DNA from: Pleodorina starrii
Lineage: Eukaryota; Chlorophyta; Chlorophyceae; Chlamydomonadales; Volvocaceae
Assembly (NCBI GenBank): GCA_030267565.1
Contig: BRXU01000028.1
Coordinates: 1,575,001-1,639,000 of the forward strand
DNA: 64,000 nt
Direction of reading: 5' to 3'
The translations under genes were made by a program, and so were the position numbers. The notes below the pieces were generated by a model, which did not search any database, had not been told where the DNA came from, and worked only from the letters and a program-made list of their open reading frames with translations. Positions 22,005-63,932 of the stretch are shown here, piece after piece (the first letter of the stretch is position 1; the number at the start of each line of letters is the position of its first letter).

Positions 22005-22022
22005 CGGGAGATCCCAACTGAT
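22005..22022 (-). ncRNA. Truncated tRNA-Ser 3' half at the array edge
   Basis: Only A38, the 3' strand of the anticodon stem and part of the variable arm remain. The T arm and 3' acceptor strand are replaced by unique sequence. It marks the array boundary and cannot form a tRNA by itself. Confidence 0.7.
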
Positions 22023-22509
22023 ATCGGGTAGAATCCGCACTGTCACCTCACCGGTCCTTACACCCCACCTCCCAAGAGTCCGTGAACGCTGCACCTTCGA
22101 CAGAGCGAGCGGCAAGTGAGGCGTTGTCGTGAACCCTGTGTCACGACACACTGCGTCTCGGGCACATCGGGTAGAATCTTGCGGCCTGAGAAACTGTAGT
22201 CGGGCTGCAGACTGGTAAAGGTGACTCGAGCTCGAGTTTTTTGGGCAGGTCTGACCGGGCCTTTCTATCCTAGCCGGGCTTAGGGATACTGCCGTACTTG
22301 GATCATGAGCGGAACTCAGCTCCCGCTCAGGCAGTGATCGCCGGAGTAACGGCACTCAGATCCCGTCTTCCGGAGTAGATTCCGCGGCGTTCCCCCATCC
22401 TTGACCGAGGAGGGGTTTCCTGGTGTAGATCGTACACTCCAGGCTTTCGACACGCTGTGTCAATTACGCAGTGTGTCATGACACCTGTACGAAAACCTTG
22501 GCGGATCAT

Positions 22510-22597
22510 TTCTAGTCAGTCCCCTTAACCACTCGGGCACGACTGTCTCATGTCGCAGTCGACAGAATTCGAACCTGTGCGGGAGATCCCAACTGAT
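22510..22597 (-). ncRNA. Permuted tRNA-Ser(AGA) locus, first complete one in the array
   Basis: 3' half 22597-22554, spacer 22553-22547, 5' half 22546-22510. The acceptor stem has one unpaired end (A1 against C72), and the last T-stem pair is a G-U. A T4 run follows 14 nt past the 5' half. It is slightly degraded compared with central units. Confidence 0.5.
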
Positions 22598-23076
22598 ATC
22601 GGGTAAAATCCGCACTGTCACCTCACCGGTCCTTACACCCCACCTCCCAAGAGTCCGTGAACGCTGCACCTTCGACAGAGCGAGCGGCAAGTGAGGCGTT
22701 GTCGTGAACCCTGTGTCACGACACACTGCGTCTCGGGCACATCGGGTAGAATCATGCGGCCTGAGAAACTGCAGTCGGGCTGCAGACTGGTAAAGGTGAC
22801 TCGAGCTCGAGTTTTTTGGGCAGGCCTGACCGGGCCTTTCTATCCTAGCCGGGCTTAGGGATACTGCCGTACTTGGATCATGAGCGGAACTCAGCTCCCT
22901 CTCAGGCAGTGATCGCCGGAGTAACGGCACTCAGATCCCGTCTTCCGGAGTAGATTCCGCGGCGTTCCCCCATCCTTGACCGAGGAGGGGTTTCCTGGTG
23001 TAGATCGTACACTCCAGGCTTTCGACACGCTGTGTCAATTACGCATGACACCTGTACGAAAGCCTTGGCGGATCAT

Positions 23077-23164
23077 TTCTAGTCAGTCCCCTTAACCACT
23101 CGGGCACGATTGCCTCATGTCGCAGTCGACAGGATTCGAACCTGTGCGGGAGATCCCAACTGAT
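23077..23164 (-). ncRNA. tRNA-Ser(AGA) halves in a 567-bp unit (likely degraded class)
   Basis: Representative of the 567-bp class. The 5' acceptor strand reads GCAATCG, giving an A-C mismatch at the fourth pair, and the downstream T4 is changed to CTTTC, removing the pol III terminator. Anticodon, D, T and variable arms remain intact. The same two changes occur together in most 567-bp units (for example at 24219, 24786, 26503, 27645, 28787, 29929, 32213). Confidence 0.5.
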
Positions 23165-26100
23165 ATCGGGTAGAATCCGCACTGTCACCTCACCGGTCCT
23201 TACACCCCACCTCCCAAGAGTCCGTGAACGCTGCGCCTTCGACAGAGCGAGCGGCAAGTGAGGCGTTGTCGTGAACCCTGTGTCACGACACACTGCGTCT
23301 CGGGCACATCGGGTAGAATCTTGCGGCCTGAGAAACTGCAGTCGGGCTGCAGACTGGTAAAGGTGACTCGAGCTCGAGTTTTTTGGGCAGGTCTGACCGG
23401 GCCTTTCTATCCTAGCCGGGCTTAGGGATACTGCCGTACTTGGATCATAAGCGGCACTCAGCTCCCGCTCAGGCAGTGATCGCCGGAGTAACGGCACTCA
23501 GATCCCGTCTTCCGGAGTAGATTCCACGGCGTTCCCCCATCCTTGACCGAGGAGGGGTTTCCTGGTGTAGATCGTACACTCCAGGCTTTCGACACGCTGT
23601 GTCAATTACGCAGTGTGTCATGACACCTGTACGAAAACCTTGGCGGATCATTTCTAGTCAGTCCCCTTAACCACTCGGGCACGACTGTCTCATGTCGCAG
23701 TCGACAGAATTCGAACCTGTGCGGGAGATCCCAACTGATATCGGGTAAAATCCGCACTGTCACCTCACCGGTCCTTACACCCCACCTCCCAAGAGTCCGT
23801 GAACGCTGCACCTTCGACAGAGCGAGCGGCAAGTGAGGCGTTGTCGTGAACCCTGTGTCACGACACACTGCGTCTCGGGCACATCGGGTAGAATCTTGCG
23901 GCTTGAGAAACTGCAGTCGGGCTGCAGACTGGTAAAGGTGACTCGAGCTCGAGTTTTTTGAGCAGGTCTGACCGGGCCTTTCTATCCTAGCCGGGCTTAG
24001 GGATACTGCCGTACTTGGATCATGAGCGGAACTCAGCTCCCTCTCAGGCAGTGATCGCCGGAGTAACGGCACTCAGATCCCGTCTTCCGGAGTAGATTCC
24101 GCGGCGTTCCCCCATCCTTGACCGAGGAGGGGTTTCCTGGTGTAGATCGTACACTCCAGGCTTTCGACACGCTGTGTCAATTACGCATGACACCTGTACG
24201 AAAGCCTTGGCGGATCATTTCTAGTCAGTCCCCTTAACCACTCGGGCACGATTGCCTCATGTCGCAGTCGACAGGATTCGAACCTGTGCGGGAGATCCCA
24301 ACTGATATCGGGTAAAATCCGCACTGTCACCTCACCGGTCCTTACACCCCACCTCCCAAGAGTCCGTGAACGCTGCACCTTCGACAGAGCGAGCGGCAAG
24401 TGAGGCGTTGTCGTGAACCCTGTGTCACGACACACTGCGTCTCGGGCACATCGGGTAGAATCATGCGGCCTGAGAAACTGCAGTCGGGCTGCAGACTGGT
24501 AAAGGTGACTCGAGCTCGAGTTTTTTGAGCAGGTCTGACCGGGCCTTTCTATCCTAGCCGGGCTTAGGGATACTGCCGTACTTGGATCATGAGCGGAACT
24601 CAGCTCCCTCTCAGGCAGTGATCGCCGGAGTAACGGCACTCAGATCCCGTCTTCCGGAGTAGATTCCGCGGCGTTCCCCCATCCTTGACCGAGGAGGGGT
24701 TTCCTGGTGTAGATCGTACACTCCAGGCTTTCGACACGCTGTGTCAATTACGCATGACACCTGTACGAAAGCCTTGGCGGATCATTTCTAGTCAGTCCCC
24801 TTAACCACTCGGGCACGATTGCCTCATGTCGCAGTCGACAGGATTCGAACCTGTGCGGGAGATCCCAACTGATATCGGGTAGAATCCGCACTGTCACCTC
24901 ACCGGTCCTTACACCCCACCTCCCAAGAGTCCGTGAACGCTGCGCCTTCGACAGAGCGAGCGGCAAGTGAGGTGTTGTCGTGAACCCTGTGTCACGACAC
25001 ACTGCGTCTCGGGCACATCGGGTAGAATCATGCGGCCTGAGAAACTGCAGTCGGGCTGCAGACTGGTAAAGGTGACTCGAGCTGGAGTTTTTTGGGCAGG
25101 CCTGACCGGGCCTTTCTATCCTAGCCGGGCTTAGGGATACTGCCGTACTTGGATCATGAGCGGCACTCAGCTCCCTCTCAGGCAGTGATCGCCGGAGTAA
25201 CGGCACTCAGATCCCGTCTTCCGGAGTAGATTCCGCGGCGTTCCCCCATCCTTGACCGAGGAGGGGTTTCCTGGTGTAGATCGTACACTCCAGGCTTTCG
25301 ACACGCTGTGTCAATTACGCAGTGTGTCATGACACCTGTACGAAAACCTTAGCGGATCATTTCTAGTCAGTCCCCTTAACCACTCGGGCACGACTGCCTC
25401 ATGTCGCAGTCGACAGAATTCGAACCTGTGCGGGAGATCCCAACTGATATCGGGTAGAATCCGCACTGTCACCTCACCGGTCCTTACACCCCACCTCCCA
25501 AGAGTCCGTGAACGCTGCGCCTTCGACAGAGCGAGCGGCAAGTGAGGCGTTGTCGTGAACCCTGTGTCACGACACACTGCGTCTCGGGCACATCGGGTAG
25601 AATCTTGCGGCCTGAGAAACTGCAGTCGGGCTGCAGACTGGTAAAGGTGACTCGAGCTCGAGTTTTTTGGGCAGGTCTGACCGGGCCTTTCTATCCTAGC
25701 CGGGCTTAGGGATACTGCCGTACTTGGATCATAAGCGGCACTCAGCTCCCGCTCAGGCAGTGATCGCCGGAGTAACGGCACTCAGATCCCGTCTTCCGGA
25801 GTAGATTCCGCGGCGTTCCCCCATCCTTGACCGAGGAGGGGTTTCCTGGTGTAGATCGTACACTCCAGGCTTTCGACACGCTGTGTCAATTACGCAGTGT
25901 GTCATGACACCTGTACGAAAACCTTGGCGGATCATTTCTAGTCAGTCCCCTTAACCACTCGGGCACGAATGCCTCATGTCGCAGTCGACAGAATTCGAAC
26001 CTGTGCGGGAGATCCCAACTGATATCGGGTAAAATCCGCACTGTCACCTCACCGGTCCTTACACCCCACCTCCCAAGAGTCCGTGAACGCTGCGCCTTCG

Positions 26101-29100
26101 ACAGAGCGAGCGGCAAGTGAGGCGTTGTCGTGAACCCTGTGTCACGACACACTGCGTCTCGGGCACATCGGGTAGAATCATGCGGCCTGAGAAACTGCAG
26201 TCGGGCTGCAGACTGGTAAAGGTGACTCGAGCTCGAGTTTTTTGGGCAGGCCTCACCGGGCCTTTCTATCCTAGCCGGGCTTAGGGATACTGCCGTACTT
26301 GGATCATGAGCGGAACTCAGCTCCCTCTCAGGCAGTGATCGCCGGAGTAACGGCACTCAGATCCCGTCTTCCGGAGTAGATTCCGCGGCGTTCCCCCATC
26401 CTTGACCGAGGAGGGGTTTCCTGGTGTAGATCGTACACTCCAGGCTTTCGACACGCTGTGTCAATTACGCATGACACCTGTACGAAAGCCTTGGCGGATC
26501 ATTTCTAGTCAGTCCCCTTAACCACTCGGGCACGATTGCCTCATGTCGCAGTCGACAGAATTCGAACCTGTGCGGGAGATCCCAACTGATATCGGGTAAA
26601 ATCCGCACTGTCACCTCACCGGTCCTTACACCCCACCTCCCAAGAGTCCGTGAACGCTGCGCCTTCGACAGAGCGAGCGGCAAGTGAGGCGTTGTCGTGA
26701 ACCCTGTGTCACGACACACTGCGTCTCGGGCACATCGGGTAGAATCTTGCGGCCTGAGAAACTGCAGTCGGGCTGCAGACTGGTAAAGGTGACTCGAGCT
26801 CGAGTTTTTTGGGCAGGTCTGACCGGGCCTTTCTATCCTAGCCGGGCTTAGGGATACTGCCGTACTTGGATCATAAGCGGCACTCAGCTCCCGCTCAGGC
26901 AGTGATCGCCGGAGTAACGGCACTCAGATCCCGTCTTCCGGAGTAGATTCCGCGGCGTTCCCCCATCCTTGACCGAGGAGGGGTTTCCTGGTGTAGATCG
27001 TACACTCCAGGCTTTCGACACGCTGTGTCAATTACGCAGTGTGTCATGACACCTGTACGAAAGCCTTGGCGGATCATTTCTAGTCAGTCCCCTTAACCAC
27101 TCGGGCACGATTGCCTCATGTCGCAGTCGACAGGATTCGAACCTGTGCGGGAGATCCCAACTGATATCGGGTAGAATCCGCACTTTCACCTCGCCGGTCC
27201 TTACACCCCACCTCCCAAGAGTCCGTGAACGCTGCGCCTTCGACAGAGCGAGCGGCAAGTGAGGTGTTGTCGTGAACCCTGTGTCACGACACACTGCGTC
27301 TCGGGCACATCGGGTAGAATCATGCGGCCTGAGAAACTGCAGTCGGGCTGCAGACTGGTAAAGGTGACTCGAGCTCGAGTTTTTTGGGCAGGCCTCACCG
27401 GGCCTTTCTATCCTAGCCGGGCTTAGGGATACTGCCGTACTTGGATCATGAGCGGAACTCAGCTCCCTCTCAGGCAGTGATCGCCGGAGTAACGGCACTC
27501 AGATCCCGTCTTCCGGAGTAGATTCCGCGGCGTTCCCCCATCCTTGACCGAGGAGGGGTTTCCTGGTGTAGATCGTACACTCCAGGCTTTCGACACGCTG
27601 TGTCAATTACGCATGACACCTGTACGAAAGCCTTGGCGGATCATTTCTAGTCAGTCCCCTTAACCACTCGGGCACGATTGCCTCATGTCGCAGTCGACAG
27701 GATTCGAACCTGTGCGGGAGATCCCAACTGATATCGGGTAGAATCCGCACTGTCACCTCACCGGTCCTTACACCCCACCTCCCAAGAGTCCGTGAACGCT
27801 GCGCCTTCGACAGAGCGAGCGGCAAGTGAGGCGTTGTCGTGAACCCTGTGTCACGACACACTGCGTCTCGGGCACATCGGGTAGAATCTTGCGGCCTGAG
27901 AAACTGCAGTCGGGCTGCAGACTGGTAAAGGTGACTCGAGCTGGAGTTTTTTGGGCAGGTCTGACCGGGCCTTTCTATCCTAGCCGGGCTTAGGGATACT
28001 GCCGTACTTGGATCATAAGCGGCACTCAGCTCCCGCTCAGGCAGTGATCGCCGGAGTAACGGCACTCAGATCCCGTCTTCCGGAGTAGATTCCGCGGCGT
28101 TCCCCCATCCTTGACCGAGGAGGGGTTTCCTGGTGTAGATCGTACACTCCAGGCTTTCGACACGCTGTGTCAATTACGCAGTGTGTCATGACACCTGTAC
28201 GAAAACCTTAGCGGATCATTTCTAGTCAGTCCCCTTAACCACTCGGGCACGACTGCCTCATGTCGCAGTCGACAGAATTCGAACCTGTGCGGGAGATCCC
28301 AACTGATATCGGGTAGAATCCGCACTGTCACCTCACCGGTCCTTACACCCCACCTCCCAAGAGTCCGTGAACGCTGCGCCTTCGACAGAGCGAGCGGCAA
28401 GTGAGGTGTTGTCGTGAACCCTGTGTCACGACACACTGCGTCTCGGGCACATCGGGTAGAATCATGCGGCCTGAGAAACTGCAGTCGGGCTGCAGACTGG
28501 TAAAGGTGACTCGAGCTCGAGTTTTTTGGGCAGGCCTCACCGGGCCTTTCTATCCTAGCCGGGCTTAGGGATACTGCCGTACTTGGATCATGAGCGGAAC
28601 TCAGCTCCCTCTCAGGCAGTGATCGCCGGAGTAACGGCACTCAGATCCCGTCTTCCGGAGTAGATTCCGCGGTGTTCCCCCATCCTTGACCGAGGAGGGG
28701 TTTCCTGGTGTAGATCGTACACTCCAGGCTTTCGACACGCTGTGTCAATTACGCATGACACCTGTACGAAAGCCTTGGCGGATCATTTCTAGTCAGTCCC
28801 CTTAACCACTCGGGCACGATTGCCTCATGTCGCAGTCGACAGGATTCGAACCTGTGCGGGAGATCCCAACTGATATCGGGTAGAATCCGCACTGTCACCT
28901 CACCGGTCCTTACACCCCACCTCCCAAGAGTCCGTGAACGCTGCGCCTTCGACAGAGCGAGCGGCAAGTGAGGCGTTGTCGTGAACCCTGTGTCACGACA
29001 CACTGCGTCTCGGGCACATCGGGTAGAATCTTGCGGCCTGAGAAACTGCAGTCGGGCTGCAGACTGGTAAAGGTGACTCGAGCTCGAGTTTTTTGGGCAG

Positions 29101-32100
29101 GTCTGACCGGGCCTTTCTATCCTAGCCGGGCTTAGGGATACTGCCGTACTTGGATCATAAGCGGCACTCAGCTCCCGCTCAGGCAGTGATCGCCGGAGTA
29201 ACGGCACTCAGATCCCGTCTTCCGGAGTAGATTCCGCGGCGTTCCCCCATCCTTGACCGAGGAGGGGTTTCCTGGTGTAGATCGTACACTCCAGGCTTTC
29301 GACACGCTGTGTCAATTACGCAGTGTGTCATGACACCTGTACGAAAACCTTAGCGGATCATTTCTAGTCAGTCCCCTTAACCACTCGGGCACGACTGCCT
29401 CATGTCGCAGTCGACAGAATTCGAACCTGTGCGGGAGATCCCAACTGATATCGGGTAAAATCCGCACTGTCACCTCACCGGTCCTTACACCCCACCTCCC
29501 AAGAGTCCGTGAACGCTGCGCCTTCGACAGAGCGAGCGGCAAGTGAGGTGTTGTCGTGAACCCTGTGTCACGACACACTGCGTCTCGGGCACATCGGGTA
29601 GAATCATGCGGCCTGAGAAACTGCAGTCGGGCTGCAGACTGGTAAAGGTGACTCGAGCTGGAGTTTTTTGGGCAGGCCTCACCGGGCCTTTCTATCCTAG
29701 CCGGGCTTAGGGATACTGCCGTACTTGGATCATGAGCGGCACTCAGCTCCCTCTCAGGCAGTGATCGCCGGAGTAACGGCACTCAGATCCCGTCTTCCGG
29801 AGTAGATTCCGCGGTGTTCCCCCATCCTTGACCGAGGAGGGGTTTCCTGGTGTAGATCGTACACTCCAGGCTTTCGACACGCTGTGTCAATTACGCATGA
29901 CACCTGTACGAAAGCCTTGGCGGATCATTTCTAGTCAGTCCCCTTAACCACTCGGGCACGATTGCCTCATGTCGCAGTCGACAGGATTCGAACCTGTGCG
30001 GGAGATCCCAACTGATATCGGGTAGAATCCGCACTGTCACCTCACCGGTCCTTACACCCCACCTCCCAAGAGTCCGTGAACGCTGCGCCTTCGACAGAGC
30101 GAGCGGCAAGTGAGGCGTTGTCGTGAACCCTGTGTCACGACACACTGCGTCTCGGGCACATCGGGTAGAATCTTGCGGCCTGAGAAACTGCAGTCGGGCT
30201 GCAGACTGGTAAAGGTGACTCGAGCTCGAGTTTTTTGGGCAGGTCTGACCGGGCCTTTCTATCCTAGCCGGGCTTAGGGATACTGCCGTACTTGGATCAT
30301 AAGCGGCACTCAGCTCCCGCTCAGGCAGTGATCGCCGGAGTAACGGCACTCAGATCCCGTCTTCCAGAGTAGATTCCGCGGCGTTCCCCCATCCTTGACC
30401 GAGGAGGGGTTTCCTGGTGTAGATCGTACACTCCAGGCTTTCGACACGCTGTGTCAATTACGCAGTGTGTCATGACACCTGTACGAAAACCTTAGCGGAT
30501 CATTTCTAGTCAGTCCCCTTAACCACTCGGGCACGACTGCCTCATGTCGCAGTCGACAGAATTCGAACCTGTGCGGGAGATCCCAACTGATATCGGGTAA
30601 AATCCGCACTGTCACCTCACCGGTCCTTACACCCCACCTCCCAAGAGTCCGTGAACGCTGCGCCTTCGACAGAGCGAGCGGCAAGTGAGGTGTTGTCGTG
30701 AACCCTGTGTCACGACACACTGCGTCTCGGGCACATCGGGTAGAATCATGCGGCCTGAGAAACTGCAGTCGGGCTGCAGACTGGTAAAGGTGACTCGAGC
30801 TCGAGTTTTTTGGGCAGGCCTCACCGGGCCTTTCTATCCTAGCCGGGCTTAGGGATACTGCCGTACTTGGATCATGAGCGGAACTCAGCTCCCTCTCAGG
30901 CAGTGATCGCCGGAGTAACGGCACTCAGATCCCGTCTTCCGGAGTAGATTCCGCGGTGTTCCCCCATCCTTGACCGAGGAGGGGTTTCCTGGTGTAGATC
31001 GTACACTCCAGGCTTTCGACACGCTGTGTCAATTACGCATGACACCTGTACGAAAGCCTTGGCGGATCATTTCTAGTCAGTCCCCTTAACCACTCGGGCA
31101 CGATTGCCTCATGTCACAGTCGACAGGATTCGAACCTGTGCGGGACATCCCAACTGATATCGGGTAGAATCCGCACTGTCACCTCACCGGTCCTTACACC
31201 CCACCTCCCAAGAGTCCGTGAACGCTGCGCCTTCGACAGAGCGAGCGGCAAGTGAGGCGTTGTCGTGAACCCTGTGTCACGACACACTGCGTCTCGGGCA
31301 CATCGGGTAGAATCTTGCGGCCTGAGAAACTGCAGTCGGGCTGCAGACTGGTAAAGGTGACTCGAGCTCGAGTTTTTTGGGCAGGTCTGACCGGGCCTTT
31401 CTATCCTAGCCGGGCTTAGGGATACTGCCGTACTTGGATCATAAGCGGCACTCAGCTCCCGCTCAGGCAGTGATCGCCGGAGTAACGGCACTCAGATCCC
31501 GTCTTCCGGAGTAGATTCCGCGGCGTTCCCCCATCCTTGACCGAGGAGGGGTTTCCTGGTGTAGATCGTACACTCCAGGCTTTCGACACGCTGTGTCAAT
31601 TACGCAGTGTGTCATGACACCTGTACGAAAACCTTAGCGGATCATTTCTAGTCAGTCCCCTTAACCACTCGGGCACGACTGCCTCATGTCGCAGTCGACA
31701 GAATTCGAACCTGTGCGGGAGATCCCAACTGATATCGGGTAAAATCCGCACTGTCACCTCACCGGTCCTTACACCCCACCTCCCAAGAGTCCGTGAACGC
31801 TGCGCCTTCGACAGAGCGAGCGGCAAGTGAGGTGTTGTCGTGAACCCTGTGTCACGACACACTGCGTCTCGGGCACATCGGGTAGAATCATGCGGCCTGA
31901 GAAACTGCAGTCGGGCTGCAGACTGGTAAAGGTGACTCGAGCTGGAGTTTTTTGGGCAGGCCTGACCGGGCCTTTCTATCCTAGCCGGGCTTAGGGATAC
32001 TGCCGTACTTGGATCATGAGCGGCACTCAGCTCCCTCTCAGGCAGTGATCGCCGGAGTAACGGCACTCAGATCCCGTCTTCCGGAGTAGATTCCGCGGCG

Positions 32101-33937
32101 TTCCCCCATCCTTGACCGAGGAGGGGTTTCCTGGTGTAGATCGTACACTCCAGGCTTTCGACACGCTGTGTCAATTACGCATGACACCTGTACGAAAGCC
32201 TTGGCGGATCATTTCTAGTCAGTCCCCTTAACCACTCGGGCACGATTGCCTCATGTCGCAGTCGACAGGATTCGAACCTGTGCGGGAGATCCCAACTGAT
32301 ATCGGGTAGAATCCGCACTGTCACCTCACCGGTCCTTACACCCCACCTCCCAAGAGTCCGTGAACGCTGCGCCTTCGACAGAGCGAGCGGCAAGTGAGGC
32401 GTTGTCGTGAACCCTGTGTCACGACACACTGCGTCTCGGGCACATCGGGTAGAATCTTGCGGCCTGAGAAACTGCAGTCGGGCTGCAGACTGGTAAAGGT
32501 GACTCGAGCTCGAGTTTTTTGGGCAGGTCTGACCGGGCCTTTCTATCCTAGCCGGGCTTAGGGATACTGCCGTACTTGGATCATAAGCGGCACTCAGCTC
32601 CCGCTCAGGCAGTGATCGCCGGAGTAACGGCACTCAGATCCCGTCTTCCGGAGTAGATTCCGCGGCGTTCCCCCATCCTTGACCGAGGAGGGGTTTCCTG
32701 GTGTAGATCGTACACTCCAGGCTTTCGACACGCTGTGTCAATTACGCAGTGTGTCATGACACCTGTACGAAAACCTTAGCGGATCATTTCTAGTCAGTCC
32801 CCTTAACCACTCGGGCACGACTGCCTCATGTCGCAGTCGACAGAATTCGAACCTGTGCGGGAGATCCCAACTGATATCGGGTAGAATCCGCACTGTCACC
32901 TCACCGGTCCTTACACCCCACCTCCCAAGAGTCCGTGAACGCTGCGCCTTCGACAGAGCGAGCGGCAAGTGAGGTGTTGTCGTGAACCCTGTGTCACGAC
33001 ACACTGCGTCTCGGGCACATCGGGTAGAATCATGCGGCCTGAGAAACTGCAGTCGGGCTGCAGACTGGTAAAGGTGACTCGAGCTCGAGTTTTTTGGGCA
33101 GGTCTGACCGGGCCTTTCTATCCTAGCCGGGCTTAGGTATACTGCCGTACTTGGATCATGAGCGGCACTCAGCTCCCTCTCAGGCAGTGATCGCCGGAGT
33201 AACGGCACTCAGATCCCGTCTTCCGGAGTAGATTCCGTGGCGTTCCCCCATCCTTGACCGAGGAGGGGTTTCCTGGTGTAGATCGTACACTCCAGGCTTT
33301 CGACACGCTGTGTCAATTACGCAGTGTGTTATGACACCTGTACGAAAACCTTGGCGGATCATTTCTAGTCAGTCCCCTTAACCACTCGGGCACGACTGCC
33401 TCATGTCGCAGTCGACAGGATTCGAACCTGTGCGGGAGATCCCAACTGATATCGGGTAAAATCCGCACTGTCACCTCACCGGTCCTTACACCCCACCTCC
33501 CAAGAGTCCGTGAACGCTGCGCCTTCGACAGAGCGAGCGGCAAGTGAGGTGTTGTCGTGAACCCTGTGTCACGACACACTGCGTCTCGGGCACATCGGGT
33601 AGAATCTTGTGGCCTGAGAAACTGCAGTCGGGCTGCAGACTGGTAAAGGTGACTCGAGCTCGAGTTTTTTGGGCAGGCCTGACCGGGCCTTTCTATCCTA
33701 GCCGGGCTTAGGGATACTGCCGTACTTGGATCATGAGCGGCACTCAGCTCCCTCTCAGGCAGTGATCGCCGGAGTAACGGCACTCAGATCCCGTCTTCCG
33801 GAGTAGATTCCGCGGCGTTCCCCCATCCTTGACCGAGGAGGGGTTTCCTGGTGTAGATCGTACACTCCAGGCTTTCGACACGCTGTGTCAATTACGCAGT
33901 GTGTCATGACGCCTGTACGAAAACCTTGGCGGATCAT

Positions 33938-34025
33938 TTCGAGTCAGTCCCCTTAACCACTCGGGCACGAATGCCTCATGTCGCAGTCGACAGGATTCGA
34001 ACCTGTGCGGGAGATCCCAACTGAT
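33938..34025 (-). ncRNA. Permuted tRNA-Ser locus with anticodon CGA
   Basis: Anticodon bases at 33941-33939 read CGA instead of AGA. T stem perfect and T4 present; the acceptor fourth pair is mismatched (GCATTCG). Confidence 0.5.
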
Positions 34026-38507: not shown

Positions 38508-38521
38508 CCTTGGCGGATCAT

Positions 38522-48384: not shown

Positions 48385-48871
48385 ATCGGGTAGAATCCGC
48401 ACTGTCACCCCACCGGTCCTTACACCCCACCTCCCAAGACTCCGTGAACGCTGCGCCTTCGACAGAGCGAGCGGCAAGTGAGGTGTTGTCGTGAACCCTG
48501 TGTCACGACACACTGCGTCTCGGGCACATCGGGTAGAATCTTGTGGCCTGAGAAACTGCAGTCGGGCTGCAGACTGGTAAAGGTGACTCGAGCTCGAGTT
48601 TTTTGGGCAGGTCTGACCGGGCCTTTCTATCCTAGCCGGGCTTAGGTATACTGCCGTACTTGGATCATGAGCGGCACTCAGCTCCCTCTCAGGCAGTGAT
48701 CGCCGGAGTAACGGCACTCAGATCCCGTCTTCCGGAGTAGATTCCGCGGCGTTCCCCCATCCTTGACCGAGGAGGGGTTTCCTGGTGTAGATCGTACACT
48801 CCAGGCTTTCGACACGCTGTGTCAATTACGCAGTGTGTCATGACACCTGTACGAAAACCTTGGCGGATCAT

Positions 48872-48959
48872 TTCGAGTCAGTCCCCTTAACCACTCGGGC
48901 ACGACTGCCTCATGTCGCAGTCGACAGAATTCGAACCTGTGCGGGAGATCCCAACTGAT
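48872..48959 (-). ncRNA. Permuted tRNA-Ser(CGA) locus, second of three in a row
   Basis: Acceptor perfect; the last T-stem pair is G-U (AATTCGAA form on the plus strand). T4 present. Confidence 0.55.
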
Positions 48960-49446
48960 ATCGGGTAGAATCCGCACTGTCACCCCACCGGTCCTTACAC
49001 CCCACCTCCCAAGACTCCGTGAACGCTGCGCCTTCGACAGAGCGAGCGGCAAGTGAGGTGTTGTCGTGAACCCTGTGTCACGACACACTGCGTCTCGGGC
49101 ACATCGGGTAGAATCTTGTGGCCTGAGAAACTGCAGTCGGGCTGCAGACTGGTAAAGGTGACTCGAGCTCGAGTTTTTTGGGCAGGTCTGACCGGGCCTT
49201 TCTATCCTAGCCGGGCTTAGGTATACTGCCGTACTTGGATCATGAGCGGCACTCAGCTCCCTCTCAGGCAGTGATCGCCGGAGTAACGGCACTCAGATCC
49301 CGTCTTCCGGAGTAGATTCCGCGGCGTTCCCCCATCCTTGACCGAGGAGGGGTTTCCTGGTGTAGATCGTACACTCCAGGCTTTCGACACGCTGTGTCAA
49401 TTACGCAGTGTGTCATGACACCTGTACGAAAACCTTGGCGGATCAT

Positions 49447-49534
49447 TTCGAGTCAGTCCCCTTAACCACTCGGGCACGACTGCCTCATGTCGCAGTCGAC
49501 AGAATTCGAACCTGTGCGGGAGATCCCAACTGAT
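49447..49534 (-). ncRNA. Permuted tRNA-Ser(CGA) locus, third of three in a row
   Basis: Same structure as the preceding unit, including the G-U in the T stem. The trio suggests local spread of the CGA variant by unequal exchange or conversion. Confidence 0.55.
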
Positions 49535-51171: not shown

Positions 51172-51259
51172 TTCGAGTCAGTCCCCTTAACCACTCGGGC
51201 ACGAATGCCTCATGTCGCAGTCGACAGGATTCGAACCTGTGCGGGAGATCCCAACTGAT
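51172..51259 (-). ncRNA. Permuted tRNA-Ser locus with anticodon CGA, acceptor mismatch
   Basis: GCATTCG acceptor (one mismatch), perfect T arm. The unit also has a TGACGCC instead of TGACACC beside the terminator, a mark shared with the CGA unit at 33,938. Confidence 0.5.
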
Positions 51260-53707: not shown

Positions 53708-53718
53708 CCTAGCACTCA
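53708..53718. repeat. LINE target-site duplication, left copy
   Basis: CCTAGCACTCA, repeated at 59236-59246 and present once at the matching place of the empty Helentron copy at 61,045-62,205. This fixes both ends of the LINE insertion. Confidence 0.9.
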
Positions 53719-56700
53719 TAATAATAATAATAATAATACGCCCGACCGGAGGCCGAGGCGTGGGTTAAGGGAGCAGAGGAGGTGGGGTGACGGGTTTCCC
53801 CGGTCCCAGTCCTCCCCCGCCACCGCGGTGGGGGTTGAGAACGAGTGTGTGTTGGTTATGTGCCCGTCTGCTGTGGCGTCTCGTGCGGGGCGCGTTCCAT
53901 TTGCCGCCGGGTGATCACAATCTTGTTGAGCGCCCGGACAGCGTGATCGTGGAGTTCGTTGCAGCATGTTTTGGCCGCTTCGCTGCCCGCCCCTAGGGTG
54001 CGGAGAAGGGGGCGTATCACGCCTGGGGGTGTGGGGGCTGTGTCGGCGTGTGCGGTTTGCATGGCTTCGACCGGGTCACGGGGCTTCGGGGCGAGGTACT
54101 TTGTTATGCGTCCGTACGGTATGGGTTTGGGTCCAGCCGCTTCGTCGGTTAGGCCGGTCAGGCCGGGGTTGTCTGGAATGAGCCGCAGCTCGGGGGGTAG
54201 AGATGTGGATCCGCGGTATCTGGGTGCCCGAGCCCGCACGCTGGGGTCAGCATTCATGGCGAGACTGAGCTGGTTCAGGGCTATCCTATGGCGCGATCCC
54301 ACGTTCCGGCCTCCGATTAGTTGCAGCTGATCGGTGGTGATGATGTGCGTGCCCGTGTTCTGATCCCTCAGGGCCCTGAGGTCGAGACCCAGCTCAAGCA
54401 GAGGTTGTACGCATCGGAAGAGGAGCGCAAGCGCCTTGGGTTCGGCCGCTGGGTTGAGAGATCCGATCAGGTGGGCGAGGCTGCTCATTGTCGTCTCGTA
54501 TGCTGTCCCTTTGTCCGTGAGTTCAATCCCCTCCTCCCTCACGAGAGCGAGCTGTTTCAGTGTGGTGTAGAATTTGCATTCCCGTTTGAGTTCATGTGCC
54601 GGTACGGTGCCCATGTATCGACTTTGCAGGTGGAGGAGAGCTCTGGTCACCGCTCCGAGACGGCCGTCATCATTGAGGGAGAGGACGAGGGTCTTTGCCG
54701 CCCGGACGGCGTATAAGGTGCGTACGGTGCCAACCCCCAGGCCGAGCCGCGCGGTCGGGTTGAGAATGGCGCGGGTGGGGAAGCCCATCTTGAGTCCGTA
54801 GCTGCGTTTGGCTATGCCCGCGATTTGCGCATCGAAACTGGCAATGTCTTGTGGGGTGTACGCCATGGTGGGCAGGCTGTACGCCACGAAGGGGTGTATG
54901 AGGGTTCTGATCATGTTGATGCGTTGGTCGGGGGTCGCGAGGGAGCTCTGAATGCCCCGTCCTCGTCTGTCGACTTCGGCGCGCACATAGGCCACTTGTT
55001 CTGCCCAGTCTAGCGTGGGGGTAATATGTACTCCCAGATACTTGTACGGCTGCGTGGGGGGTGCGTACGGGATAGGCGTGTCGTCTATTCGAATTTGGTT
55101 TTTCAGAAGGCGTTCCAGGGCGGTCTGGTATTTTTGTGTGCCGGGGCCTCTGCTCAGATCCTTGTCCGAGCGCGCGCGGCCATGGAGAATGCCTTGTATC
55201 TGGCACTTGCTCACGTTGACCTTGAGGGCCCCCCACCTCGCATACCGTTCAATTTTTGAGCATTGGAGCCGCAGATCCGATACCGCGTTCGTAAGGATAA
55301 CTAGGTCGTCAGCGAATGCCCCCGAGCTGAAGTGATGGCGATCGTTTTCTTCCGCCCGGAGGCAGCCATATCGGTACCCCCTGCCGCCGCTGTGCAGCCA
55401 TCGTAGGAGGGGTTCCATGTAGATAATGAACAGGACGGGTGACAGCGTGTCTCCCTGGATCGTTCCGCGCTCAATTGCAATGTTCGCAGTGCATCCGTGC
55501 TCGGTTCGTATGCGTGTCGCGGCGTGCGAGTACAGGTTCGCAACCACCTCGATGAGGTCATCTGGGTAGCCCAGGTCGTACATGATCATAAGCAGTTTAT
55601 CATGATCGATGGTGTTGAACGCGGATGTGAAATCAATATAAAGGAGGAACAGGTCGCGCCCGGTAAGGCCCGCGTCCTCGATAGCGTGCAGCACGTTCTG
55701 GATTTGCCGTTCTGTGTTGCGCTGCCGGAGGTACCCTTCCTGGGCCTCGGTAAAGATGTGTGCTTGCTCGCTGTAAGTTACGATGTTTAGCGTGATGTGG
55801 CTGGTGTACAGCTTGTAGAGGGTGTTGGCCAGGGCGATCGGGCGTTTGTTCTTAATAAGAAGTGGGTCTCCTTTCTTGGGGATGAGGACCGTGTCGGATT
55901 GTGTCCAGTGGGGGGGGATTTCGGCTTTGACCCACATTACGGTGATCAGGTGGTGTATTGCGGTCTGGAGGTCGTCTGGAAGGGTTTGGAGGAGTTCATT
56001 GGGCAGGCCGTCCGGCCCGGGGGCTTTGTTGCGGGCGAGGTGGCCTAGGCAGGTGCGAAAGTTGCATGGGTCGAGGATTCCGGGGAGGAGGGACGGGGGT
56101 GCGCCGTCCCACCGTCCAAGGCCTTGTCTGAGTGGGTCAGGGGCCCCAGCCGCTTCCCAGGGGTAATTGCGTGGGGCCTCGCCTGGGAGGTATTTGCCTG
56201 TGCGGGGACCGGAGACTGGCTTGGCTAGGAGGGCGAAGTGTGTGTGTAGCGCGTCGAGAATGCCTTCGGAATCCGTGCACAGGTGCCCGTCCTCGGGGTG
56301 GCGTATAGCCGCGATACCTCGCGGTTGATCGTCAGGCTCCAGGATTTGCCTGTGCGCCTGCTTTGGCTTCTTTGTGAAAAGGCGTTGGAGCCGCCTGCTT
56401 GCTCTGCGCATGTGCAGTTTGCGCGTCTCATTAACCACCTTCCTGATTTCGTCCCCCTTGCTCCGGATCGCGGTGCGCAGGTCGCGGGTTTCAAGGTTGT
56501 CCCATGGGTCCCCCTGGCCTTGTGTTTGGCGGGTGGTACCAGTTTCAGGTGGGTCGGGGGTCTGATCTGTGGCTTTCGGGACCGGCGTTGCCTCCTGGGG
56601 GTGCCGTGATGGGGGTTGTTGGGTCGCTTTCGTCGGGTTGGGGGGGGCCCCCGGCGGGTGCAGTGCTTGCGTGAGGTCGCGTTTCAGTGCTTTGTGTTCA

Positions 56701-59235
56701 TCATGTAAACGGGTGAGGCGCCTGCCAATGCCCCGGCGCGCGTGCAGTCTCCCTGAGCGGGGGGGTTTTTGTTGGCAGTGACTTTCGAGGATGCCGAGGC
56801 ATTGCAGCATGAGCGTCCCAAGCTCTTGGCTTAGGGAAGTGACATTCGTGGCTTGCACGGCCTCGTGATTGCGCAGGTGGCCAAGGATCATCCGCGCCTG
56901 GTCCTTGCCCGCGGCGCGCTCCATTTGGGTGGAGGCGGCTGTTATGGTCTCGTGCGCGGGGCGGAGAGCGTCCAGCAGGTGGGTAATTGCGCCCGTGAGT
57001 GTCGCCTCCATTTCCATGCGTGCTTTGCCTTTGCTTTCTTTGAGGATGGGCAGCTGGATGCGGCTCCATGAGCTGGGGTTCAGGTCTGTGGGGGGCTGGG
57101 CAGCGGGGGCAGGGAAGAGGCGGAGTCCCGCTAGGGGAAGGAGGGTACACAGCGGTCGGTGGTCGAAGTTGCCTCCACAATCGTACACTTGTTCGTATGC
57201 ATTGCCCTCCTTGGCCACAGCGGCGGTGGTTTGGGGAGCAAGGAGGACGTCGTCGATGCGGCTCAGGTGGGTGTCGAGTCCGAGTTGCGTCTGCGTGTAG
57301 GTGTATTCTCGTCGCCTGGTGTCTACTGGTTGTAGGTTGTTGTCCGTCGAGAAGCATCTGTGTGCCCTGTCGTCCGAGTTGCAGATGCCTGTCGACCGGT
57401 CACTCGCTTTGAGCACGGCGTTCCAGTCGCCCGCCATGACCAGGTGTTCACCCTTCGCTTTGGCGTGCGCCGAGGCCGCTCGCCCATATTCGTATATTCT
57501 CTGCCGTGCGGTGGAGTCGGATGGGCAGTACACCCCTATGATGTGGAGGGCGGAGCTGGCCGGGGGGGCTATACGCACATGCCCTATGTACCCTTCCAGT
57601 TCAGTGGGTATAGGTTCTGCGGTGGCGCTGCCCTGTCTACTGAAGCGCTCCGCCACTCCGATCAGGACGCCTGCTTCCCGATTGGCGCGGTCGGCGACAT
57701 GCGGGCGGTTGCTCAGGTAGGTCTGATAGGGCTGCATGCTGTGCTTCATGCTTGCAATAGCGCGCCGATGGTGGGCGCTTAGCTTGGTTTCGGTGAGCAC
57801 CAGCACATCTGGCTTGTGGTCGTCGACTAGGCGCAAAATACCCTCGCGGTGCCCTTGCAGGCCTCGCGTGTTCATCGTAACGAGTTTGAGATAGCCTATC
57901 GGCGGTGCTCCGGGTGCGGCGGGGGGTGGCTCGCTGGCGGTCTGCGCTGGCGTCTTGGCAGGTGCGGCGGGGGTGTCCGTCTTTGGCTTTTTGGGGTGGG
58001 CGTATTTCGTCATGTGTTGTTGCTGAGGTCCTGTTTTTGGTTTAGGGCGGGACTGCGGAGGGGGGGAGCTTTCCGCTGGGCGCTTGCGTGGGCGTGGACG
58101 TGCTGCATCCCGTTCCGGAATGGGGCGCGTCGTGCCGTGCGCCGCCAGCCGTACCGGGTCGGGGGCCGGGTTCGGTGGGTTGTGTTGCGATGTCTCAGTT
58201 GTCTCGGCTCCGTCCGGTGCGTCGGCGGCCGTGCGGTTATGGCCCTGCCGAATGGGGAGGCCTTGCATGCGGAGCAGGTGATATGTGATGGTGTGGGTTG
58301 CGGGCGCGGGCCCTACTTGCCTTCTGGTCCGCTTTCTGCTGGTGCGTGCAGGTGCCGCGGCCTCTGGAGTGGGGGCGCGCCTGGTGGCCCGTCCCGTGTC
58401 GGCGTGGCGCGCTTCAGGAGCATTCGCGGTTGCTCTACGGGGCCTAGGGACGTCTTGCTGCGCGGGCCGCGGGGCGCCCGCGGCGTCGTGGGCATCCGGC
58501 GGAGGCTGCGGGATTTCCGCATCCAGCTCTGCGTCGTCAGTGTCCATGGGGCTGGGGTCGGCAGGGGTATGTGCCGGGGGGCCCTCGGGGCTTCCGGGGT
58601 CCGTCGGTTGCATGTGTACTTTGGTTCCGGGGGAGCCCGCGTCATCTACCTCCATCGGGGTGGGGTTTGGGCTAGCGGCGGTGTACCGGGGTGCCCCGTG
58701 CTCTGCAGTCGCTCTCCCCTCGTGGGAGGGCGAGGGGAGCGCTTCGGTGGGGGTGGGTTCCGGTGGTGTGCGTGTGTCGTGGCTAGTCTGGTGCGGTTCC
58801 GTCGTGTCCGTGATGGTGGCGGCGGGTCCGTTCTGTGTGTTGATCGCCAGGGTTGCGGTCCATTGCTCAGGTGGCGTGACATTCCGGAGGTCGACATGTG
58901 TTTGACATGGGGTGCTGTTGTGCCGGTGTTGGAGGCAGTAGATAGTGCCGTGGGCGAGGGGCCAATTGGTTGTCAGCTGTGTCGGGCGCGGCGATTGCGA
59001 GTCAATAATGAACCAATGCGTGTGTTGCCTTCGGACTGCGACAGCATGGCCTTCGAGATGCACTATGAAACCCCAGCTTTGGGCGTGGGGGGGGAGTTGT
59101 GCCCAGAGGGTGTCGAGCTGGTCCCCTTTGCGGATCGGAAGCTCGGTGCTCACTGATGCGATGTGTGTGTCGTGGGGTGTGTTGCCGCTGGCGTCGCGGA
59201 TCCGTACGTTGTGGCGTAGGTAGTGGTTCAGCACT
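53719..59235 (-). mobile_element. APE-type non-LTR retrotransposon (LINE), 5'-truncated
   Basis: 5,517-bp insertion on the minus strand, bounded by an 11-bp target-site duplication. The 3' end has about 140 bases of untranslated sequence and a trinucleotide tail (TAT repeated, 53719-53735) in place of poly(A). The 5' end falls inside the open frame, so this copy lacks its start and any 5' untranslated region. An intact long frame and a perfect duplication mean a recent insertion. Confidence 0.9.
53856..59235 (-). CDS. LINE polyprotein: protease-like remnant, APE endonuclease, reverse transcriptase
   Basis: One uninterrupted frame of almost 1,795 codons. No start codon belongs to the element: the frame opens through the target duplication, so the protein is N-terminally incomplete. 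Residues 1-110 resemble the end of a cysteine-protease fold (GHAVAVRR then WFIIDSQS, which could hold the catalytic His and Asp; the Cys would lie in the missing part). Residues 110-440 are Pro/Thr/Ala-rich and basic. APE endonuclease begins near 447 (LKLVTMNTRGLQGHR, then VLVLTETK), with MAGDWNAVL further on. The reverse transcriptase spans about 1040-1400: LIPKKGD, YIDFTSAFNTIDH, TIQGDTLSP, AFADDLVIL. The C-terminal 350 residues have no recognised RNase H or zinc knuckle. The protein would nick target DNA and prime cDNA synthesis. Chlamydomonad LINEs with added proteases are known (the Dualen type), but the clade here is not settled. Confidence 0.9.
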
Positions 59236-59246
59236 CCTAGCACTCA
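59236..59246. repeat. LINE target-site duplication, right copy
   Basis: Second copy of CCTAGCACTCA, followed by the remaining Helentron sequence (ACTTAACCCG). Confidence 0.9.
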
Positions 59247-59317
59247 ACTTAACCCGTACGGATTTAGTGGGGCCCCGCCCTTTTTCCGGCTTCAAGGAAG
59301 CCGACACCAACCCCTTG

Positions 59318-61044
59318 TTTGGGCAGGTCTGACCGGGCCTTTCTATCCTAGCCGGGCTTAGGTATACTGCCGTACTTGGATCATGAGCGGCACTCAGCTC
59401 CCTCTCAGGCAGTGATCGCCGGAGTAACGGCACTCAGATCCCGTCTTCCGGAGTAGATTCCGCGGTGTTCCCCCATCCTTGACCGAGGAGGGGTTTCCTG
59501 GTGTAGATCGTACACTCCAGGCTTTCGACACGCTGTGTCAATTACGCAGTGTGTCATGACACCTGTACGAAAACCTTGGCGGATCATTTCTAGTCAGTCC
59601 CCTTAACCACTCGGGCACGACTGCCTCATGTCGCAGTCGACAGGATTCGAACCTGTGCGGGAGATCCCAACTGATATCGGGTAAAATCCGCACTGTCACC
59701 TCACCGGTCCTTACACCCCACCTCCCAAGAGTCCGTGAACGCTGCGCCTTCGACAGAGCGAGCGGCAAGTGAGGTGTTGTCGTGAACCCTGTGTCACGAC
59801 ACACTGCGTCTCGGGCACATCGGGTAGAATCTTGTGGCCTGAGAAACTGCAGTCGGGCTGCAGACTGGTAAAGGTGACTCGAGCTGGAGTTTTTTGGGCA
59901 GGCCTGACCGGGCCTTTCTATCCTAGCCGGGCTTAGGGATACTGCCGTACTTGGATCATGAGCGGCACTCAGCTCCCTCTCAGGCAGTGATCGCCGGAGT
60001 AACGGCACTCAGATCCCGTCTTCCGGAGTAGATTCCGCGGCGTTCCCCCATCCTTGACCGAGGAGGGGTTTCCTGGTGTAGATCGTACACTCCAGGCTTT
60101 CGACACGCTGTGTCAATTACGCAGTGTGTTATGACACCTGTACGAAAACCTTGGCGGATCATTTCGAGTCAGTCCCCTTAACCACTCGGGCACGAATGCC
60201 TCATGTCGCAGTCGACAGGATTCGAACCTGTGCGGGAGATCCCAACTGATATCGGGTAAAATCCGCACTGTCACCTCACCGGTCCTTACACCCCACCTCC
60301 CAAGAGTCCGTGAACGCTGCGCCTTCGACAGAGCGAGCGGCAAGTGAGGTGTTGTCGTGAACCCTGTGTCACGACACACTGCGTCTCGGGCACATCGGGT
60401 AGAATCTTGTGGCCTGAGAAACTGCAGTCGGGCTGCAGACTGGTAAAGGTGACTCGAGCTCGAGTTTTTTGGGCAGGTCTGACCGGGCCTTTCTATCCTA
60501 GCCGGGCTTAGGTATACTGCCGTACTTGGATCATGAGCGGCACTCAGCTCCCTCTCAGGCAGTGATCGCCGGAGTAACGGCACTCAGATCCCGTCTTCCG
60601 GAGTAGATTCCGCGGCGTTCCCCCATCCTTGACCGAGGAGGGGTTTCCTGGTGTAGATCGTACACTCCAGGCTTTCGACACGCTGTGTCAATTACGCAGT
60701 GTGTTATGACACCTGTACGAAAACCTTGGCGGATCATTTCTAGTCAGTCCCCTTAACCACTCGGGCACGACTGCCTCATGTCGCAGTCGACAGGATTCGA
60801 ACCTGTGCGGGAGATCCCAACTGATATCGGGTAAAATCCGCACTGTCACCTCACCGGTCCTTACACCCCACCTCCCAAGAGTCCGTGAACGCTGCGCCTT
60901 CGACAGAGCGAGCGGCAAGTGAGGTGTTGTCGTGAACCCTGTGTCACGACACACTGCGTCTCGGGCACATCGGGTAGAATCTTGTGGCCTGAGAAACTGC
61001 AGTCGGGCTGCAGACTGGTAAAGGTGACTCGAGCTCGAGTTTTT
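59318..61044 (-). repeat. Array segment between Helentron copies 2 and 3 (three unit lengths)
   Basis: Three 575-bp periods of the tRNA-Ser array in the same phase and orientation as the main array. tRNA loci at 59588-59675, 60163-60250 and 60738-60825. Together with one Helentron-like element this makes a 2,888-bp higher-order unit. Confidence 0.9.
60163..60250 (-). ncRNA. Permuted tRNA-Ser locus with anticodon CGA inside the higher-order repeat
   Basis: Acceptor GCATTCG mismatch, perfect T arm, upstream TTTTA variant. Its duplicate lies exactly 2,888 bp further on. Confidence 0.5.
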
Positions 61045-62205
61045 GGGCGGGGCCCCAGCGTGAAGCGCCCGGGGGGGCCCCGCCCTGTAGGATTGCCCAT
61101 GTCTGTGCCTGCACTGTCTGATGTCTAATGTAAAAGCGCACGTGCAGAATTTCGGCCAACGGAAAGACTCCATAAGTAAAATATTACGTTCTTTATTGCA
61201 TGGTAAATTTATTATAGGAACCCAACCTCGTATGAGTAAAAACCAGTTTGGCAGTCTCCATGGACCGAGGCCGAGGTCAAACCAACGCCTCTCGGCCTAT
61301 AATTAATTCCAGAAAATCCATCGTTTCTCGAACTGGAATTCTGACATTACGGCGTGAAATGAATCTTCGTTTCGGCGACCAAATATGTTTGCATTGCGAA
61401 CAATCTTCCCGCGAACACACCACAGCAGCTCTGCTTGCCGGTCCGACCGACTTGATGCACACTTATATTACAAAGATTGCATGGGACAAACCATGAGGGG
61501 CAAACTGCTGGTTGTTGGACGCCAAGACGCAAATTGCACACACGATGCGGCAGTCTTCTGCGGGCCGCCCAACAAGTCCAGTCGGCAACCTAGGGAATCC
61601 CTGTCCTAATGTTAAAGCATTCAAGCCTCCTCTACGGCGAATACCTCAGTAGCGAAGCCTGTGCACTCTCGTCGGCAACTGCACGTCGTCGCAATCAACC
61701 CTCGCAAACAGTTCCGCTGTCCTATTGTCAAGTCAGCCTGCGTGATGTGTAAATGATACACTCCCTGTCTACTGTCAAGTAACTTCAGCCAATGCGCTGG
61801 CCGGAAGAATTGCACAGTGCCGAGACGGCGCGCGATGCTAAACATGGGTCGGATTGCTGAAGCCGCAGGCATTTCAGATATAAAGCTCTGGCTGCCTATC
61901 AGCAGGAATGTCGATACTCTCACAGTTGACGCCCTCGCCGCTCGCTTTGGAAATGCCGTATTTCGGTCGATGCGCACATGCGCTCATGCACCCGGCGGGA
62001 TGACGCGCTTCGCGCGGCGCCGGCAGGCCTTGCTAACGACTCGGCTAGCAGGCATTTCGGGAAAAAGCTCTGGCTGTCTATCAGCAGGAATGTCGACACT
62101 CTCACACTTCACGCCCTCGCCGCCCTAGCACTCAACTTAACCCGTACGGATTTAGTGGGGCCCCGCCCTTTTTCCGGCTTCAAGGAAGCCGACACCAACC
62201 CCTTG
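61045..62205 (+). mobile_element. Helentron-like element, copy 3, uninterrupted
   Basis: The reference copy, 1,161 bp. 5' palindrome 61045-61085; subterminal inverted repeat GGGGCCCCGCCC 62157-62168; hairpin stems CGGCTTC 62175-62181 and GAAGCCG 62185-62191 with loop AAG; 14 nt to the end CCCCTTG. I noticed only a few single-base differences from copy 2. The longest frames (about 120 codons) show no Rep, helicase or other domain. Confidence 0.65.
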
Positions 62206-63932
62206 TTTGGGCAGGTCTGACCGGGCCTTTCTATCCTAGCCGGGCTTAGGTATACTGCCGTACTTGGATCATGAGCGGCACTCAGCTCCCTCTCAGGCAG
62301 TGATCGCCGGAGTAACGGCACTCAGATCCCGTCTTCCGGAGTAGATTCCGCGGCGTTCCCCCATCCTTGACCGAGGAGGGGTTTCCTGGTGTAGATCGTA
62401 CACTCCAGGCTTTCGACACGCTGTGTCAATTACGCAGTGTGTCATGACACCTGTACGAAAACCTTGGCGGATCATTTCTAGTCAGTCCCCTTAACCACTC
62501 GGGCACGACTGCCTCATGTCGCAGTCGACAGGATTCGAACCTGTGCGGGAGATCCCAACTGATATCGGGTAAAATCCGCACTGTCACCTCACCGGTCCTT
62601 ACACCCCACCTCCCAAGAGTCCGTGAACGCTGCGCCTTCGACAGAGCGAGCGGCAAGTGAGGTGTTGTCGTGAACCCTGTGTCACGACACACTGCGTCTC
62701 GGGCACATCGGGTAGAATCTTGTGGCCTGAGAAACTGCAGTCGGGCTGCAGACTGGTAAAGGTGACTCGAGCTGGAGTTTTTTGGGCAGGCCTGACCGGG
62801 CCTTTCTATCCTAGCCGGGCTTAGGGATACTGCCGTACTTGGATCATGAGCGGCACTCAGCTCCCTCTCAGGCAGTGATCGCCGGAGTAACGGCACTCAG
62901 ATCCCGTCTTCCGGAGTAGATTCCGCGGCGTTCCCCCATCCTTGACCGAGGAGGGGTTTCCTGGTGTAGATCGTACACTCCAGGCTTTCGACACGCTGTG
63001 TCAATTACGCAGTGTGTTATGACACCTGTACGAAAACCTTGGCGGATCATTTCGAGTCAGTCCCCTTAACCACTCGGGCACGAATGCCTCATGTCGCAGT
63101 CGACAGGATTCGAACCTGTGCGGGAGATCCCAACTGATATCGGGTAAAATCCGCACTGTCACCTCACCGGTCCTTACACCCCACCTCCCAAGAGTCCGTG
63201 AACGCTGCGCCTTCGACAGAGCGAGCGGCAAGTGAGGTGTTGTCGTGAACCCTGTGTCACGACACACTGCGTCTCGGGCACATCGGGTAGAATCTTGTGG
63301 CCTGAGAAACTGCAGTCGGGCTGCAGACTGGTAAAGGTGACTCGAGCTCGAGTTTTTTGGGCAGGTCTGACCGGGCCTTTCTATCCTAGCCGGGCTTAGG
63401 TATACTGCCGTACTTGGATCATGAGCGGCACTCAGCTCCCTCTCAGGCAGTGATCGCCGGAGTAACGGCACTCAGATCCCGTCTTCCGGAGTAGATTCCG
63501 CGGCGTTCCCCCATCCTTGACCGAGGAGGGGTTTCCTGGTGTAGATCGTACACTCCAGGCTTTCGACACGCTGTGTCAATTACGCAGTGTGTTATGACAC
63601 CTGTACGAAAACCTTGGCGGATCATTTCTAGTCAGTCCCCTTAACCACTCGGGCACGACTGCCTCATGTCGCAGTCGACAGGATTCGAACCTGTGCGGGA
63701 GATCCCAACTGATATCGGGTAAAATCCGCACTGTCACCTCACCGGTCCTTACACCCCACCTCCCAAGAGTCCGTGAACGCTGCGCCTTCGACAGAGCGAG
63801 CGGCAAGTGAGGTGTTGTCGTGAACCCTGTGTCACGACACACTGCGTCTCGGGCACATCGGGTAGAATCTTGTGGCCTGAGAAACTGCAGTCGGGCTGCA
63901 GACTGGTAAAGGTGACTCGAGCTCGAGTTTTT
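62206..63932 (-). repeat. Array segment between Helentron copies 3 and 4
   Basis: Duplicate of 59318-61044 with a very small number of differences (for example CGGTGTT to CGGCGTT at the left side). tRNA loci at 62476-62563, 63051-63138 and 63626-63713. Confidence 0.9.
63051..63138 (-). ncRNA. Permuted tRNA-Ser locus with anticodon CGA, duplicate of the 60,163 locus
   Basis: Identical in the tRNA halves to its higher-order partner, including the acceptor mismatch, so the duplication followed the anticodon change. Confidence 0.5.

Follow-up and report, generated by a model that had tools for sequence, protein, structure and literature searches.

Circularly permuted tRNA-Ser(AGA) genes and an associated satellite in the genome of Pleodorina starrii

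Circularly permuted tRNA genes are a known class: one survey catalogues 34 of them, including tRNA-Ser(AGA) genes in Micromonas pusilla and in the nucleomorph of Bigelowiella natans, and describes a circular route for their maturation (PMC3978253). Those of type II, broken between positions 37 and 38, are given there for Ostreococcus, Micromonas, the B. natans nucleomorph and Cyanidioschyzon merolae, and Chlamydomonas reinhardtii is stated to lack permuted tRNA genes (PMC3978253). Here we describe a stretch of 64,000 nucleotides of the volvocine alga Pleodorina starrii (contig BRXU01000028.1, positions 1,575,001 to 1,639,000; hereafter the window), in which a satellite array carries tRNA-Ser halves in permuted order, together with the tRNA-Ser genes found elsewhere in the same assembly (95 contigs, 136,057,477 bases). 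The genome of strain NIES-4479 was published as 95 contigs of 136.1 Mbp, and the term tRNA is absent from the main text of that paper (PMC10256686).

The P. starrii genes share with type II genes the leading 3′ half, the break at 37/38 and a short intervening sequence, which is 7 or 16 nt long in P. starrii and 5 to 64 nt among the type II genes tabulated for green algae and the nucleomorph in the survey (PMC3978253). Unlike the type II systems, P. starrii belongs to the Chlorophyceae and has several dispersed copies of one isoacceptor as well as satellite arrays; arrays of permuted genes are not described for type II systems in the accessible part of that source (PMC3978253). Auxenochlorella resembles P. 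starrii in being a non-prasinophyte green alga with permuted tRNA genes, and tandem arrays are not described in the part of its report available to us (PMC12633428). No title on a volvocine permuted tRNA gene or on a permuted-gene array was found in the open-licence literature. Auxenochlorella belongs to another group of green algae than P. starrii. The kind of gene is known; to judge from what could be found, its presence in this lineage, its apparently exclusive use and its occurrence as a satellite have no precedent. Tandem arrays of tRNA genes reportedly occur as the tRNA-Cys clusters of Arabidopsis and the tRNA repeat at human 1q23.3; these consist of head-to-tail tRNA units as in P. starrii, and nothing points to permuted genes in them. 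The ordinary-order counterpart within P. starrii is a tRNA-Ser(GCT) array on contig C20.

Four tRNA-Ser(AGA) loci were found outside the arrays (L076-L079), and all four are permuted. Within 601 bp, each locus has a single 3′ half and a single 5′ half, with no further tRNA halves within ~1 kb on each side. The rejoined tRNA is identical in L076, L078 and L079 and differs by one base in L077, and the flanks of the four loci are unlike each other. The intervening sequence is ATGCGAG in L076 and a 16-mer of the form ATTCTACCCGNNNTTG, starting with ATTCTACCCG, in L077-L079. After the halves had been rejoined by script and ten T added on each side, ARAGORN called tRNA-Ser in 63 of 63 cases, namely the four single loci and 59 units of the window. 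Since each of the four loci presents the permuted order only, without outer halves, they support, as does the T-run after the 5′ half, an earlier note on this DNA that had proposed circularly permuted tRNA-Ser genes.

We then considered whether an ordinary tRNA-Ser(AGA) gene is present elsewhere. A pattern for the D arm and the anticodon, allowing up to 2 mismatches, matched 152 places in the whole genome; all places with 0 or 1 mismatch were listed, and those with 2 in part. Twelve places with 0 or 1 mismatch lie outside the array of the window (contig C28) and its sister array on contig C31, and all were read: the four AGA genes are permuted, and five CGA genes (L080-L084) and three TGA genes (L071, L085 and L087) are in normal order. 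Some anticodon types were read by eye, ARAGORN with short introns allowed naming L080 Gly and L087 Phe, and L071 being named either Ser or Phe as the intron setting varied. The listed places with 2 mismatches, part of which were read, mostly belong to the tRNA-Ser(GCT) array on C20, and one TGA locus among them (L086) is in ordinary order. With a stretch of an ordinary tRNA-Ser(CGA) gene as query, no contiguous AGA gene appeared among the 40 best of 89 candidates, the contiguous relatives being CGA and TGA only. The matches listed for this query also included array halves and the 3′ half of L076; L077-L079 were not among them, so these matches are not the full set. A match to this query at C7:4,249,436 was recognized by eye as a decayed CGA gene with an intron. 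A whole-genome tRNA family search, of which the best 63 of 4674 candidates were scored, enters no statement of absence made here. At the single loci read, the CGA, TGA and GCT genes are in ordinary order. The earlier note had asked whether normal-order serine genes exist elsewhere: they do for CGA, and none was found for AGA in a genome-wide search that was strong, if not exhaustive. On that search, the permuted genes appear to be the only tRNA-Ser(AGA) genes in the assembly.

The array in the window contains 59 pairs of tRNA-Ser halves, all on the minus strand; the plus strand has none. Every unit has the arrangement given in the earlier note, with the 3′ half placed 7 nt before the 5′ half and the break between positions 37 and 38, and the spacer is ACATGAG throughout (59/59). 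The D stem (CCC/GGG) and the anticodon stem are paired in all units, and the acceptor stem is fully paired in 40 if G-U pairs are allowed; the 19 copies with a mismatch are mostly (16) found before position 36,000, nearer the left end. The anticodon is AGA in 51 units and CGA in 8, and TTTT is found 3′ of the 5′ half in 47. That the joined halves make a complete tRNA held for every unit, ARAGORN calling tRNA-Ser in 59 of 59. Presented as laid out with 60-nt flanks, no unit was called (0/59), and over the window ARAGORN found no tRNA and Rfam at gathering thresholds gave no match, which is expected because the halves are swapped. The CCC/GGG D stem was considered as an array-specific compensatory change and dropped, as ordinary CGA genes share it.

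The single permuted genes also carry putative expression signals. CATC occurs within the last 75 nt upstream of 13 of 14 ordinary single tRNA-Ser loci, at varying positions, compared with 5 of 14 in a downstream control; it lies 18-20 nt upstream of the 3′ half in three of the four single permuted genes. A T-run follows the 5′ half by 12-14 nt in all four, and T-runs act in termination by RNA polymerase III (Pol III). L076 and the array have in common the leader GCGGATTCTACCCGATA and the 7-nt length of the intervening sequence, and none of the other three single-copy relatives is as close to the array as L076. Leader and trailer fold at −17.1 to −28.8 kcal/mol within two groups of genes versus −10.7 to −15.1 kcal/mol between the groups. 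In the leader of L076 and of the array, UCUA or UUUA stands opposite UAGA of the anticodon loop (by eye), resembling the pairing of anticodon and intron in ordinary precursors. Free folding of the precursor gave no one common structure, and two of three array variants deviate from the cloverleaf-like form of L076.

Taken from the sequence, these results suggest, with a probability of roughly 0.85, that P. starrii has functional permuted tRNA-Ser(AGA) genes, one of which, joined by an inserted element, expanded into a satellite. The tRNA-Ser(AGA) of P. starrii would then be encoded by circularly permuted genes, each giving a short transcript with a leader of ~18 nt, the 3′ half, an intervening sequence of 7 or 16 nt, the 5′ half and a trailer with a terminal T-run. 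This transcript would fold with the leader paired to the trailer beside the anticodon stem. The single genes are presumably transcribed, processed and functional, and most array copies would be weakly expressed or silent. Several observations weigh against this interpretation. The search for an ordinary AGA gene was incomplete, L077 has a mismatch in the anticodon stem, and L076 has CATG in place of CATC (by eye). Compared with shuffled flanks, the leader-trailer pairing is modest in L077-L079 (0.027-0.046) and non-significant in the array (0.209) and in L076 (0.299), and a strict 3-4-3 bulge-helix-bulge was not seen at the leader-trailer junction.

The satellite unit is a composite of a ~226-bp permuted-gene piece and a ~345-bp inverted-repeat element; an array of permuted genes, as first noted, is thus right for the gene and too simple for the unit, and the array copies are without CATC. 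In the array, 60 left and 48 right ends of the element were found, every one flanked by CCTG, the right ends of the shorter units being unmatched. Solo copies dispersed in the genome have 4-bp duplications of their own, GGTA at L014, CGCC at L024 and CTGC at L026 (by eye). With terminal inverted repeats, a target-site duplication and dispersed solo copies, the element is of the non-autonomous inverted-repeat kind, similar to a miniature inverted-repeat transposable element. An element-free site is present at C31:46,799-46,961, at the right end of the C31 array (17 units, 13 CGA and 4 AGA), and is the only full-length match among the 40 best of 77 candidates. The order at this edge is a truncated 5′ half, an uninterrupted stretch and a 3′ half. 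Because the element-free stretch lies between halves, at least two tandem pieces existed before the element was inserted. We propose that an L076-related permuted gene was present in at least two tandem copies of ~226 bp, that the element inserted into one of them with duplication of CCTG, and that the satellites on C28 and C31 arose by amplification of the resulting 575-bp composite.

Tandem clusters of the element also occur elsewhere, and comparison with the satellite unit left the tRNA part uncovered there. Those at L013 and L016-L018 have ~485-bp units, arranged end to end with GC between the copies at L017 (by eye) and in both orientations at L013. Rfam at a loose threshold found no tRNA in the L017 cluster, and we therefore make no claim of a tRNA in the dispersed element. 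L076 and the array share in their leader a 13-mer, GATTCTACCCGAT, that is also present subterminally in the inverted-repeat element; ATCGGGTAGAATC, on the plus strand of the window, is likewise common to element and tRNA leader, and GATTCTACCCG stands at the boundary of 3′ half and intervening sequence in L077-L079. The sharing of the 13-mer and of the boundary word may reflect rearrangement, capture or chance. At L010 5500-6860 (C31 ~33.5-34.85 kb), a stretch that looks like badly corrupted array sequence, matching in short words only, may be an assembly error or the product of strong decay.

The evidence for function comes from the dispersed single genes, not from the array, which reads as a satellite that captured a permuted gene and may be expressed at a low level. 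It is conceivable, if rather unlikely, that the array is instead an active dosage-type source of tRNA-Ser(AGA) and tRNA-Ser(CGA), maintained like ribosomal DNA, and this would be compatible with functional single genes. The tRNA-Ser calls in every rejoined unit and the retention of TTTT in 47 of 59 fit such a source. However, the array leader that was tested has CAGT at the position of the upstream CATC (by eye) and is without A+T-rich upstream elements, and the acceptor stem is mismatched in about a third of the copies (19/59). Nor is there a sign of constraint: over 56 complete units, mean diversity is 0.0182 in the tRNA parts versus 0.0138 in the rest, so that the tRNA parts are no less variable than their surroundings and selection on them inside the array is unsupported.

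It is also evident that the array alone is order-ambiguous, because any head-to-tail repeat can be read in two phases, and the window by itself left the permutation unproven. The same units may be read as 3′ half, 7 nt and 5′ half, or as 5′ half, ~490 nt and 3′ half with a giant intron. In the latter case the array would consist of tandem ordinary tRNA-Ser genes 7 nt apart, with an intron of ~490 nt (~138 nt before the element was inserted), and the permutation would be only apparent. Both readable array ends, the left one on C28 and the right one on C31, are cut inside a tRNA half and decide nothing, and the C31 edge, with its start-truncated 5′ half ahead of the element-free stretch and the 3′ half, can be read in favor of ordinary genes. 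We nevertheless regard this as improbable: the four single loci occur in permuted order only and L076 has the leader of the array, the TTTT closely following the 5′ half should halt Pol III within the intron, and the 7 nt between such genes contain no terminator. A permuted-order pattern in viral contigs gave five matches, all of which are neighboring ordinary tRNA genes, and the pattern alone therefore proves nothing. Slightly less probable still is that the permuted copies, single ones included, are all nonfunctional remnants, such as circular tRNA intermediates copied into DNA, and that UCU and UCC are decoded by an undetected ordinary tRNA-Ser(AGA), a view which may appeal to the unconserved tRNA parts and mismatched acceptor stems of the array, to the blank ARAGORN and Rfam results over it and to the limits of the gene search, but which is at odds with the intact tRNA of the single copies in unlike flanks, with their CATC (3/4) and T-run (4/4) and with the failure to find an ordinary AGA gene.

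The functional permuted genes favored here are accompanied by a large satellite, the layout of which is given in Table 1. The earlier note had described about 60 head-to-tail units over positions 22,005-63,932; the number is borne out by the 59 pairs counted, and the continuity is not, as inserts break the array. Units are spaced at 567 or 575 bp, a regularity interrupted at ~52,629-59,320, at 61,045-62,208 and from 63,933 on. At the left edge, from ~22,005, the 3′ half is incomplete, and to the right the array extends nearly to the end of the contig (1,639,624 bases, the window ending at 1,639,000). Tandem Repeats Finder, run with periods up to 500, missed the array. A 1.16-kb element occupies the same unit position at all three interruptions, its third copy leaving the window, and was therefore probably amplified together with the array. 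The retrotransposon in the first insert has one open frame that, as listed, begins at its first GTG and is 1795 aa long (53,856-59,243); the listed start falls in the flank, and the frame matches a P. starrii protein. Left of the array, an exon-like frame on the plus strand (~11,090-11,680) resembles aconitase, to judge from a motif; the array therefore adjoins an apparently ordinary nuclear gene.

Table 1. Features of the satellite array and its inserts in the window.
Feature	Position	Strand	Remark
Satellite, main block: 53 units of 567 or 575 bp with both halves, left end inside a 3′ half	22005..52628	-	
Example unit, inverted-repeat element TGTCACGACACACTGCG...CGCAGTGTGTCATGACA, CCTG at both flanks	45626..45970	+	
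Example unit, trailer with terminal TTTT, putative Pol III stop	45979..45996	-	TTTT in 47/59 units
Example unit, tRNA-Ser 5′ half, position 1 to 37, anticodon AGA	45997..46033	-	
Example unit, 7-nt intervening sequence ACATGAG	46034..46040	-	
Example unit, tRNA-Ser 3′ half, position 38 to discriminator G73	46041..46084	-	
Example unit, leader, 5′ of 3′ half; GCGGAT can pair with trailer ATCCGC	46085..46103	-	
Insert, ~1.16-kb element with GGGGCCCC-type ends, split by non-long-terminal-repeat (non-LTR) retrotransposon	52629..59320	.	ends by eye
Non-LTR retrotransposon between two CTAGCACTCA copies	53719..59236	-	
Satellite, second block: 3 units	59321..61044	-	
1.16-kb element, second copy, without retrotransposon	61045..62208	.	
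Satellite, third block: 3 units, until next insert	62209..63932	-	

Further tRNA-bearing arrays were noticed in the assembly. The ordinary-order tRNA-Ser(GCT) array on C20 is large (C20:996,009-1,038,888; L067, L068) with units of ~561-565 bp, and the copies read are without the TATA-like element present at the single-copy locus L072 (by eye). Others lie at C2:6,665,164-6,735,886, at C3:248-122,167, on C59 and at C2:6,518,881; the types read among them are Lys(CTT) at ~1.4-kb spacing, Trp(CCA) on C3, where one copy was read, and Arg(TCG) at 162-bp spacing. It seems to be common that tRNA genes are held in tandem arrays in the P. starrii genome.

Permuted tRNA genes have mostly been met as rare, isolated loci of algae with small genomes, and an ordinary tRNA scan, here with ARAGORN, misses those of P. 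starrii. Decoding of the common serine codons UCU and UCC needs a tRNA-Ser with A34 (inosine). Far more tentatively, and with the balance tipping against it, these codons might be read in P. starrii, perhaps also in volvocine relatives, wholly through circular-RNA tRNAs from permuted genes, with the satellites adding dozens of expressed copies that include a permuted CGA type. P. starrii has kept tandem copies, the inserted element and a site that lacks it, which offers a test of how permuted genes arise and spread. A multicellular alga with a genome of 136 Mb in which every detected gene for an essential isoacceptor is permuted would demonstrate that a core decoding task can be served by the circular-RNA route.

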